Shown here piece by piece: positions 1,134 through 26,984 of a stretch of DNA of 32,707 bases. A program made the translations under genes and the position numbers. Numbering within the stretch: the stretch's first letter is position 1; the number at the start of each line of letters is the position of its first letter. Source of the stretch: Candidatus Bipolaricaulota bacterium (GTDB lineage Bacteria > Bipolaricaulota > Bipolaricaulia > M55B111); NCBI GenBank assembly GCA_018334915.1, contig JAGXLB010000010.1:1-32707 (forward strand), written 5' to 3'. The notes below the pieces were generated by a model. It did no database searches and was not told where the DNA came from. It saw nothing but the letters and a program-made list of their open reading frames with translations.

Positions 1134-2015
1134 ATGCAAACGAAAATTGTAGTTAATCCAGTAGCCGGGGGAGGAACTTCCCTCAAAAAGTTACCAAAAG
1201 TAGAAAAAATTCTTGATTCGGAAGATGTAAAATACGATATTGTTCGAACCCGGTTTCCAGGCCACGCAACTGAACTCGCAGGACAGATAGAGGCTTCAGG
1301 AGACAGGGTAGTTGCAATGGGCGGCGACGGTACCGTTCGGGAAGTACTAAACGGGATCCTGTCTCCGGATACTCCAATAGGAATAATTCCGGCGGGCATG
1401 GGTAACGACTTCGCGCGGAGTCTCGGTATTTCTACGGATGTTTCCAGAGCCTCGCAATACCTCATAAATACTGCAATTAAAAAGGTTGATCTCGGAGTTG
1501 AACGGGGAAAGTTCTTCAACGTAATGGGAGTTGGGTTCCCGTCCCACGTAGTAGAAAGGTTCAATAGGTACAAAAGGGGTCCTGTAAGGAGTTCGTTAAT
1601 CTATTTTATCGGCTTGCTGCGTTCCGTGACTGACCTGGACAATTACGAGTTTCAACTGGAACTGGACGGTAACACACGAAACCAAAGAGCAAACGCAATC
1701 TTCGTAACAAATTCTCGGTTTACCGCGGGGGGTCTGGAACTTGTACCTCAAGCCGAGATGGATGACGGATTACTTGACGTTGCAATTATCTCCGGCGCCG
1801 GGAGGATGGAACTCCTACTGGCTTTGAGGCAAGCTTACAGAGGAGAACACGTAAACCATCCAAAGATAGAGTTTTTGAGGGCAAAAAAGGTCAGAATAGA
1901 ATCGAGATCTCGGTTGATAAAGATGTTCGATGGAGAGTTAGAAGGTACGACGCCGGCGGAACTCGAGATCGCTCCCAGGAGCAGAACCATCATAGTCCCT
2001 GCAAACGAAGAGTGA
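1134..2015 (+). CDS. Diacylglycerol kinase / YegS-family lipid kinase
   Basis: NPVAGGGTSLKKLPKVEKIL, GGDGTVREVLNGI and GIIPAGMGNDFARSL are DAGK catalytic-domain motifs. ORF could start at 1125 or 1134. Confidence 0.92.
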   Translation: MQTKIVVNPVAGGGTSLKKLPKVEKILDSEDVKYDIVRTRFPGHATELAGQIEASGDRVVAMGGDGTVREVLNGILSPDTPIGIIPAGMGNDFARSLGISTDVSRASQYLINTAIKKVDLGVERGKFFNVMGVGFPSHVVERFNRYKRGPVRSSLIYFIGLLRSVTDLDNYEFQLELDGNTRNQRANAIFVTNSRFTAGGLELVPQAEMDDGLLDVAIISGAGRMELLLALRQAYRGEHVNHPKIEFLRAKKVRIESRSRLIKMFDGELEGTTPAELEIAPRSRTIIVPANEE

Positions 2016-2228
2016 AAAAGTACAATCTATTCAATTCTTTCAGCAACGGCGGATTTATTTGTCCGGCTCGACTAAGTGCTCTCCCCCCTTATCTAGCAAC
2101 TCTCTCAAGAAACCCAGCAGTAGACGAAATCCGGCAGCCAGATAAGGGGGGAGCACTTAGTAAAAAATGAAACCAACCTTCATAAACTAAGTTTCGCTTT
2201 CATACGATGGAGAAAGAATTGAGATCAA
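2012..2228 (+). repeat. Dispersed structured intergenic element, copy A (hairpin/core inverted relative to flanks)
   Basis: Arms ACTAAGTGCTCTCCCCCCTTATCT (2071-2094) and AGATAAGGGGGGAGCACTTAGT (2140-2161), with a 2-nt bulge. Core CAGCAGTAGACGAAATCCGGCAGCCAG (2115-2141). Flanks align with copies B and C. Confidence 0.75.
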
Positions 2229-10597: not shown

Positions 10598-10739
10598 GGT
10601 AAAACCTCTCCTTTTGTCTATTCTTTTGGGTTGAAAAATGTTATCACACGGTTAACTCTATTTCAACAAAGGAGATACAGCCACTGAAATCACTGACCTG
10701 GAGTTGGATAGCGAGGCCAACAAAATCGAACAAATTTGG

Positions 10740-10959
10740 TTCTTTCCCCATTGCCTGAAAGCGAGCCGTAATTCATAAACATTTAGGTCATTTTGACCTC
10801 CATATTGCCTTTTGCCACTTATATGGCAACTTATTTAACCTTAAAATCTTATCAGTAGAGGTAATCCGGCAGCCAGGTAAGCGACAGAGGGCAGATAAGG
10901 GCTAAAAGTTTAGTCCAGCGGCGGTGAAAGAACTGAGCCAAAGTTTGTAGCCCCGCTGG
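10740..10959 (-). repeat. Dispersed structured intergenic element, copy B
   Basis: Core CAGTAGAGGTAATCCGGCAGCCAGGTAAG (10853-10881, + strand). Arms CTTTTGCCACTTAT (10809-10822) and ATAAGGGCTAAAAG (10895-10908). Flanking blocks match A and C when read on the minus strand. Confidence 0.65.
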
Positions 10960-21500: not shown

Positions 21501-22573
21501 TCTACGTACCAGTTACCCTCTCCCGCCGCTGGGTCTGCTACGGTTACGTCCTTTAGTTCGACCAATACACCCTCGTATTTTTCCTGCCTGACCTCGTTGG
21601 CCGGAAGTACTACCGGTTCCGGGATTTCTCCAACTCCGATTACTTCGACCTCACTCGGATCGTTGAACTCGGTCATCTGGTAGTACTCGTCGATCGGCCC
21701 TTTGACCCTGACGAGGTCTCCGGGAGCGACGTTCGGATTGGATCCGGTGTAGACCCAGATCCCGTTCCAGGCCCCTTTGCCATCCTGAAGGTAAAATCCG
21801 TTGTCATCCGTTACGACTGCCGTGCCAGTGGTTTCTACTATCTGTCCGGCGTAAGTTGATGCTCCCTCGTCAGTTGTACTCGACTGGACCTCTTGGACGC
21901 TTACCTCGGGAACTGCGGCTTCTTCACCTGACTTGGAGGTGCTTTTTGGTTGAATCCGGAACTCGCCGTAGCTAAAGGTAAGGGGTCCCGTTATCCTGCC
22001 GATTTCCGTTCCAGTCGAATCCGGTTGAAAATTTGAACCAGTATTCGAGCCATCAATGGCAACTTCTCCGCTGCCGTCATCTACCGACCATACTCCGTAC
22101 TCGTCCGGCGTGGAGGCGACCGTGACGTCTTCTACTTGAACCAGCATGCCCTCGTACTTTTCCTGCCCCACATCTCCGGTCTCAAGGACAAGCGGGTCCG
22201 GTATTTCCGATTCACCAATTTTGACAGCCGATTCGGGCTCTATCTCCGTCAGTTCGTGGAACTCAGTAACCGTACCGGTCACTTCCAGTTGGTCGCCGGG
22301 TGAGACCTCGGGAGTTTGGTCAACGTAAACGAAGATACCGCTCCACGGCTTGGTTCCGTCTTGCAGATAGTAGCCAGAACCGCCCACGGCTGTCACTACT
22401 CCCTTCGTAGTTACCGTCTCTTCAGCGTAATTGGACGCTCCGTCCGCGTTCCTTTCGGACTGTATTGTTTCAATGGTAACTTCTTCTGCCACCATTGTGG
22501 TTGTCGGGGCGGCTACAAGCAAGCCTACCAGCAGGACTGCGAGCAGGTAGATGGAAAACCTGCCTAAGTTCAT
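18524..22573 (-). CDS. Secreted multidomain protein: two OB-fold repeats, Fn3-like region, calcineurin-like phosphoesterase, C-terminal endonuclease/exonuclease/phosphatase domain
   Basis: Signal peptide. Tandem repeats, each with GFYLQDG-type and QEKYEG(M/V)LVxxxDVTVA motifs. LGDSRGG, FAGDLVKG, GIGNHEH, then FATFNIENL, LALNEIAN, LMGDMNASPGG and NASDHRLVW. Confidence 0.9.
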   Translation of the reverse strand: MNLGRFSIYLLAVLLVGLLVAAPTTTMVAEEVTIETIQSERNADGASNYAEETVTTKGVVTAVGGSGYYLQDGTKPWSGIFVYVDQTPEVSPGDQLEVTGTVTEFHELTEIEPESAVKIGESEIPDPLVLETGDVGQEKYEGMLVQVEDVTVASTPDEYGVWSVDDGSGEVAIDGSNTGSNFQPDSTGTEIGRITGPLTFSYGEFRIQPKSTSKSGEEAAVPEVSVQEVQSSTTDEGASTYAGQIVETTGTAVVTDDNGFYLQDGKGAWNGIWVYTGSNPNVAPGDLVRVKGPIDEYYQMTEFNDPSEVEVIGVGEIPEPVVLPANEVRQEKYEGVLVELKDVTVADPAAGEGNWYVEDETGQLLISGSHLGDAATPTQEGQSVKLIRGPVDFSYGEFRVRPQEIEGLQISFPKRGKLGESVTYPDMPKIDKFRVFLLEDEVEVSGTETGVDLTFTSIEAEELTIKFGVYEPKSGPQLPDYTETKDMTYDSPREKHEVSLDLDQLDLDQTTTINYRLIVDGIPYDGRFRVETGMNYSVVPYVEEGPFVDLVKENSAVISWETNEPTIGEVKVDDRTFSSDEPRERHEVNVTGLTPGTEIDYEVSVMDPDSDYSMSTKSYHFETESETDHFKFAFLGDSRGGYEGSEHTEGLVNYANSTNYDTMTTLLESAYKQGMDFTVFAGDLVKGYSNNVEGFRNQLKAWKDTAEAVGAYMPIYEGIGNHEHLYTAYDDGSSYGIQFDKEGENSTEAVFAEEFVNPITKPESDDPMVSPEPEGENAPTYRENAYYFDYDNSRILMINSNYWISTNPEKYGSNLEGFILENQMDWIEKVVEDAEEDPEIDHLFPIMHEPPFPNSAHIDDSMWYSGQKQYVLDMRDELLEMFGESGIVPAVLASDEHNYQRLLITEETPVYTNMTSNDYGDEFYEIVSGGAGAPKYEKSYAPWGSYLKEFKSVAHYVEFHVDGEEVAVKVRDKSGDIVDETYLKRKREETEKEVKFATFNIENLTTEQVQNKGDKQAAAAAEVIQRTNPDVLALNEIANNFQEGKMTETSNAKAFVENYLKEPQRENLPSLDYEYIYVAKSNTGIPSGMDIDNNGEIVTESGSGEYGNDCYGWGEYPGQYAMAFLSKYPIKRDQVRTFRKFLWKDMPDNKMPIGSKHGGQFLTKEEAKKFRLSSKSHWDVPVNIDGTTVHVLMAHPTPPVFDAEANLNGRRNHDEVRLLTDYAEGKDYIYDDSGEKGGLPEDAKFVLMGDMNASPGGADNFKAANLLIENPEMNTSTFPMSQGGIDISAASRFNTLGDLRVDYVIPSKDIEIKGSAVFWPGLGPGAIRLQEVTKNASDHRLVWVEADVS

Positions 22574-26766: not shown

Positions 26767-26984
26767 CGGTGAAATCAACTCAGTTTTTTTCACCGCCGTA
26801 TTTAATGGTCTAGCCCAGTTAAATACCCTCCCCCGCTTACCTGGCTACCGGGATTACCTCTACTGCTAAATTGTAAAGGTCAAATCAGTTTCCAGGTAAT
26901 CGGGGGAGGGTATGAAGGATAAAATGAAATCATCGTTCATGAAGTTTGGCTCGACTGGGGAAATGGAGATCAAATTGAGATCAA
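26767..26984 (+). repeat. Dispersed structured intergenic element, copy C
   Basis: Arms ATACCCTCCCCCGCTTACCTGG (26823-26844) and CCAGGTAATCGGGGGAGGGTAT (26892-26913), one mismatch in 22. Core on the minus strand AGCAGTAGAGGTAATCCCGGTAGCCAGGTAAG. Upstream hairpin CGGTGAAA...TTTCACCG. Confidence 0.75.

Follow-up and report, generated by a model that had tools for sequence, protein, structure and literature searches.

The window analysed in this work (the whole stretch of 32,707 nucleotides) corresponds to contig C33 of a 2.9-Mb MAG that comprises 316 contigs and is referred to as genome G000. It harbors three copies (A, B, and C) of one family of elements, each with a hairpin in its middle; the initial annotation had recognized these copies, and all of them were found close to where it had placed them, with the element ends refined here. 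The only Rfam matches above the gathering score in the window are two tRNAs; a 92-nt repeat with 71% identity (21537–21628 and 22116–22207, 579 bp apart) lies inside an ORF of 1349 aa. The features of the three copies are the following:

2030–2223, plus strand: copy A, whole MITE-like element (L arm, hairpin, R arm), from the TIR match at 2208–2223, the refined ends, and the strands of flanks and core
Gene ends at 2015 and 2270: surroundings of copy A, a DAGK-family kinase gene (ending at 2015) and a metallophosphatase gene (ending at 2270), from the Pfam families of the neighbors
2025–2029, no strand: left target duplication of copy A, ATCTA, read from the sequence
2030–2045, plus strand: left terminal inverted repeat of copy A, TTCAATTCTTTCAGCA
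2072–2095, plus strand: left hairpin arm of copy A
2088–2147, plus strand: core of copy A, inverted with respect to the orthologous element in JAGXKX
2140–2160, plus strand: right hairpin arm of copy A, AGATAAGGGGGGAGCACTTAG
2208–2223, minus strand: right terminal inverted repeat of copy A
10735–10937, minus strand: copy B, whole element, with the core reversed relative to its own arms
10818–10881, plus strand: core of copy B
26779–26979, plus strand: copy C, whole element, with the core reversed relative to its own arms
26774–26778 and 26980–26984: target duplication of copy C, ATCAA, a perfect 5-bp repeat
26836–26899, minus strand: core of copy C, whose hairpin has a perfect stem

The right target duplication of copy A reads ATCAA (2224–2228); according to the ortholog alignment, the orthologous element in genome G001 has ATCTA after its R end.

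The copies are a non-autonomous MITE of about 197 bp, with 16-bp TIRs and 5-bp target duplications, restricted to one Bipolaricaulota genus. In agreement with a short TIR element, 89 candidate full elements were retrieved, most of them 188–203 bp long and carrying the terminal repeat CTCAGTTCTTTCACCA; target duplications of 5 bp, as expected of a MITE, flank many copies. Probing 84,980 species genomes with a 20-base core pattern retrieved matches only from Candidatus Bipolaricaulota MAGs, i.e., GSL3510 (JAGXKX, the Great Salt Lake MAG, here G001) and Tobar (JAIPHJ, here G003), which, to judge from the isolate names, presumably come from hypersaline sites. The hairpin covariance model, which has A, B, and C themselves among its building sequences, detected these three copies with E-values from 1e-17 to 1e-23; it matched 89 times in G000, at least 150 in G001, 29 in G003, 13 in G002, three in G004, and never in G005; in these counts, a hairpin may at times have been matched on each of its two strands. 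All the compared genomes are incomplete MAGs (about 85%). Two pairs of contigs from G002 and G003 (G002.C32/G003.C36 and G002.C44/G003.C73) share 100% identical stretches in supposedly different species and are possibly contigs shared between bins.

The copies are nearly all intergenic, with just one inside an ORF of at least 90 codons; 49 out of 137 lie between convergent genes, compared to 66 out of 253 gaps in a background that rests on heuristic ORFs and includes the element gaps. The search for the family on phages, plasmids, and viral contigs did not retrieve any copy, and no transposase was found beside lone TIRs in the incomplete MAG G000. At two G000 loci (C238:4590-4820 and C282:7400-7630), the R arms appear by eye to be fused straight to left-arm/TIR sequence, which resembles the outcome of a hairpin deletion.

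The hairpin cassette spans about 87 nt, and its stem of 21 bp consists of nine conserved inner bp (TTACCTGGC/GCCAGGTAA) and usually 12 outer bp that vary from copy to copy and are complementary to each other. The spacer between TTACCTGG and CCAGGTAA measures 46–47 nt in 133 out of 150 copies, and 12 bp is the most frequent length of the variable stem in every class, including the copies without recognizable MITE arms. Where the stem is variable (k = 1, 2, 5–10), its pairing reaches 0.81–0.89, compared to 0.32–0.66 in shuffles, and falls to chance beyond 12 bp; double changes occur at 13 of the 19 pairs. The arms of the repeat are thus homogenized, with a complementarity far above that of shuffled partners, as in other inverted repeats whose spacer inverts. 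Selection on the stem at the RNA level was rejected, since mispairs show no RNA-strand bias (27 G-U and 23 C-A); the complementarity of the variable stem, together with this lack of bias, suggests that the stem is kept at the DNA level. A known structured RNA was also rejected, the Rfam hits of the hairpin being below the gathering score and mostly to miRNA models.

Mean pairwise identity is 0.84 for the core and 0.655 for the arms of the element, the core being the better conserved of the two. The cassette was seen by eye in at least two other arm types. The second arm type (G000.C266:25621 and 30086; G001.C5:2498, 4514, 6473, and 9975) seems, by eye, to border RAYT-type REPs; the third, of the CCAGCGAAGCGG... 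type, is found at G000.C89:3721, G000.C140:35611, G001.C51:22738, and G001.C33:65807.

The initial annotation had assigned plus-reading flanks to A and C and minus-reading ones to B, with a core that is sense to the flanks in A and antisense to them in the other two copies. Profile scoring agreed on both points (A was classed as forward, with flank scores of 121.8 vs. 0; B as reversed, with 63.1 vs. 15.5; and C as reversed, with 29.5 vs. 0). The core-versus-flank orientation was then scored over about 145 copies with legible flanks from three MAGs, with separate profiles for the left arm, the right arm, and the core, the arm classification being weak for some copies; 94 copies resulted in being forward and 51 reversed. 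G000 harbors 31 forward and 12 reversed copies (plus 20 without recognizable arms), G001 59 and 35 (plus 14), and G003 four and four (plus two). The core of A is indeed opposite to those of B and C, as had been proposed; A is no exception, however, as it has the majority orientation, and B and C represent the minority state. Moreover, the fixation of every other copy in one orientation, which had been named as evidence against a flip, is not what the genomes contain, both states being common. Core orientation can differ even between copies whose arms are 93–95% identical. A weakly resolved arm tree, built from 103 columns and 81 copies, requires at least 16 changes of orientation, three of which are forced by strongly supported branches, and 50 out of 81 arm-nearest neighbors have the same orientation, compared to 0.60 by chance.

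Elements were then paired between genomes through the DNA outside them (flank BLAST), which is roughly 80–90% identical; one of the inverted pairs described below (G001.C151:28447/G000.C263:7460) was paired from TIR-adjacent sequence instead. The ortholog of copy A (G001.C66:19575) has the same neighboring genes, insertion site, and arm direction, and its core is inverted: the arms score 208 in the direct and 52 in the inverted alignment, the core 18 and 60, respectively. The segment between the arms of the 22–24-nt inverted repeat, which the initial annotation had suspected of flipping, has thus been inverted at the very locus of copy A. The same arrangement, with arms direct and core inverted at one and the same locus, was found at ten orthologous loci, copy A included, and the core direction was kept at 12. 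The hairpin interior has therefore been inverted in place, recurrently, without movement of the element. At three further orthologous pairs, including copy B and its JAGXKX counterpart, the arms are inverted around an unchanged core, which requires an inversion of the whole element plus a flip of the core.

The core identity over 12 inverted rows averages 0.81 in the inverted and 0.59 in the direct alignment, two of these rows having been excluded later; at the 12 unflipped loci the direct identity is 0.85. The inverted pairs left out of the ten are that of copy C (with G003.C36), where the arms are not homologous, and G001.C33:29958/G000.C209:44546, whose core is too decayed. In the clearest inverted case, 60 out of 61 core nucleotides match once inverted, between loci whose flanking DNA is only 85–88% identical. 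In a comparison with all the cores, variable stem included, the reciprocal core-match ranks of inverted pairs are, for example, 1 and 1 for G001.C79:6157/G000.C71:295 and 2 and 1 for G000.C266:25621/G001.C5:9975. An inverted ortholog can thus be the reciprocal best match of a core, which implies that not every case represents a replacement by another copy. A control with hairpins that do not belong to the family gave 20 comparisons in which the loop matched strongly; 18 of them were direct and two inverted, the latter being two views of one locus that aligns directly too; this control is weak, as most of its stems measure just 10–11 bp and it may include coding hairpins. Another hairpin (stem 17–18 bp, loop 86–88) at G001.C151:31619-31741 and G000.C263:7754-7876 aligns both directly and inverted.

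As for the extent of the flip, at more than 12 bp outside the conserved 9 bp the direct identity exceeds the inverted one, which places the breakpoints inside the stem of roughly 21 bp (a conserved inner part of 9 bp and a variable outer part of 12 bp), the stem as a whole being the limit of resolution.

Template switching at inverted repeats is reported to produce both the homogenization of the arms and a reversible inversion of the spacer (PMC8604942), and comparable inversions have been described in plastids (PMC2903610) and apes (PMC8755829). Since these two outcomes together represent the signature of template switching, this process appears to be favored here, and we consider it probable that the family is a MITE with a hairpin cassette that flips recurrently in place through template switching during replication. 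According to this model, the hairpin would form on the single-stranded template at the replication fork; the DNA polymerase would jump from one stem arm to the other, copy the spacer in reverse, and jump back, so that one single event might both invert the spacer and make the two stem arms perfect copies. An occasional TIR-to-TIR inversion of the whole element could account for loci such as B. Copies A and C as single-stranded DNA fold 6–9 standard deviations better than shuffles, far beyond chance; against the model, copy B folds no better than its shuffles (z of 0.30 and −0.49). Moreover, a purely passive flip would leave several features unaccounted for, namely the higher conservation of the core compared to the arms, the near-invariant length of the spacer, the usual 12 bp of the variable stem, and the occurrence of one cassette in other arm families.

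These last aspects are those that a dedicated enzyme might account for. Template switching fits better than site-specific recombination, the other route named in the initial annotation, which remains a rival: a site-specific recombinase or transposase might recognize the conserved core arms, invert the cassette in an inverton-like manner, and possibly move it between elements. The higher conservation of the core, the nearly fixed spacer with its 12-bp outer stem, the sharing of the cassette among arm families, and the presence of RAYT-type Y1 transposases in G001 and G003 point in this direction. However, the search of the G001 MAG, where both orientations occur, retrieved no serine recombinase or invertase, a site-specific enzyme would have no need of an outer stem with a variable sequence, and an inverted segment of about 60–90 bp is short for recombination between paired sites. 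The RAYT genes (NCBIfam NF047646; L258:700-2514 and L259:1-1700, in G003 and G001) lie among a separate REP family (of the TAGCAGGCCGGGTGCC...GGCCGGT type), with no core adjoining and no hairpin match at those loci, and membership of the hairpin in a RAYT/REP system was accordingly rejected. With MAGs of about 85% completeness, a recombinase could have escaped detection; on the whole, we regard this explanation as unlikely. A slightly more doubtful scenario depicts the 87-nt hairpin as an invertible and transferable cassette of its own, whose conserved core would be recognized and flipped by an enzyme that also placed it in at least three unrelated carriers, in every case between the arms of a variable inverted repeat of 12 bp.

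It is also conceivable, and in our opinion improbable, that the cores were not flipped in place and were instead replaced by ectopic gene conversion from copies in the opposite orientation. The similarities of arms and core disagree for many pairs (e.g., 0.94 for the arms and 0.85 for the core), the closest core at several inverted loci is not that of the ortholog, and seven G001 copies (C8:1522, C21:168, C25:13718, C26:19, C32:15967, C79:47, and C146:13976) share an identical hairpin between diverged arms, which suggests a homogenization of the core between copies. On the other hand, when all the cores are ranked by their match, that of the ortholog comes first or second at several inverted loci, and the inverted orthologs are nearly as similar to each other (0.81) as the unflipped ones (0.85). 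No inversion at all would be required if the element, or the cassette, had been inserted independently and in opposite directions at identical sites, which could be invoked for B and two other loci, where the arms are inverted and the core is not. This appears hardly credible, since at the ten key loci the arms and the outer flanks align directly and the hairpin alone is inverted; in addition, the R arms of B and of its ortholog share, by eye, derived bases.

The inversion of hairpin loops has already been described at individual loci of plastids, yeast, and primates. Thanks to far more than a hundred natural replicates per genus, and to orthologs that represent both states, the bacterial family described here makes the rate, the breakpoints, and the strand bias of hairpin-driven inversion in bacteria directly measurable. 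The core orientation of such repeats is an unreliable phylogenetic character, and a testable question arises, i.e., why the flipping segment is itself conserved.

Among the known systems, invertons (PMC11892184) share with this family a short segment between inverted repeats that occurs in both orientations; the present cassette differs in that its outer repeat is variable, the segment is short, there is no evident promoter switch, and no linked invertase was found. REP/RAYT palindromes (PMC3733652) are likewise dispersed and intergenic, RAYT genes occur in the related genomes, and the core has a conserved AGTAGA; this hairpin, however, is much larger than 20–40 bp and lies inside a TIR element, and the RAYT genes are flanked by different REPs. 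Bacterial MITEs (Nezha, ERIC, NEMIS, and others; PMC3733652) are also short, hairpin-forming, and present in many intergenic copies with TIRs and target duplications; unlike them, the present element has no partner transposase that we could find, and a limited literature search retrieved no description of a bacterial MITE with an internal hairpin flipping in place. Inverted-repeat arms that become identical while the spacer inverts are known from yeast genes (PMC8604942) and from ape microinversions (PMC8755829), where the spacers are scattered and measure a few bp (yeast coding genes) or 17–33 bp (apes), whereas here the event recurs many times in one family. The hairpin-associated minute inversions of plastids, such as that of trnH-psbA, with a spacer of 25–27 bp between 18-bp arms (PMC2903610), also consist of a short spacer enclosed by perfect inverted repeats, which close relatives carry in one or the other orientation; those are single chloroplast loci, whereas the present cassette, with its longer spacer of 46–47 nt and its 21-bp stem, belongs to a dispersed bacterial family and shows a flip at roughly every second orthologous locus that could be compared.
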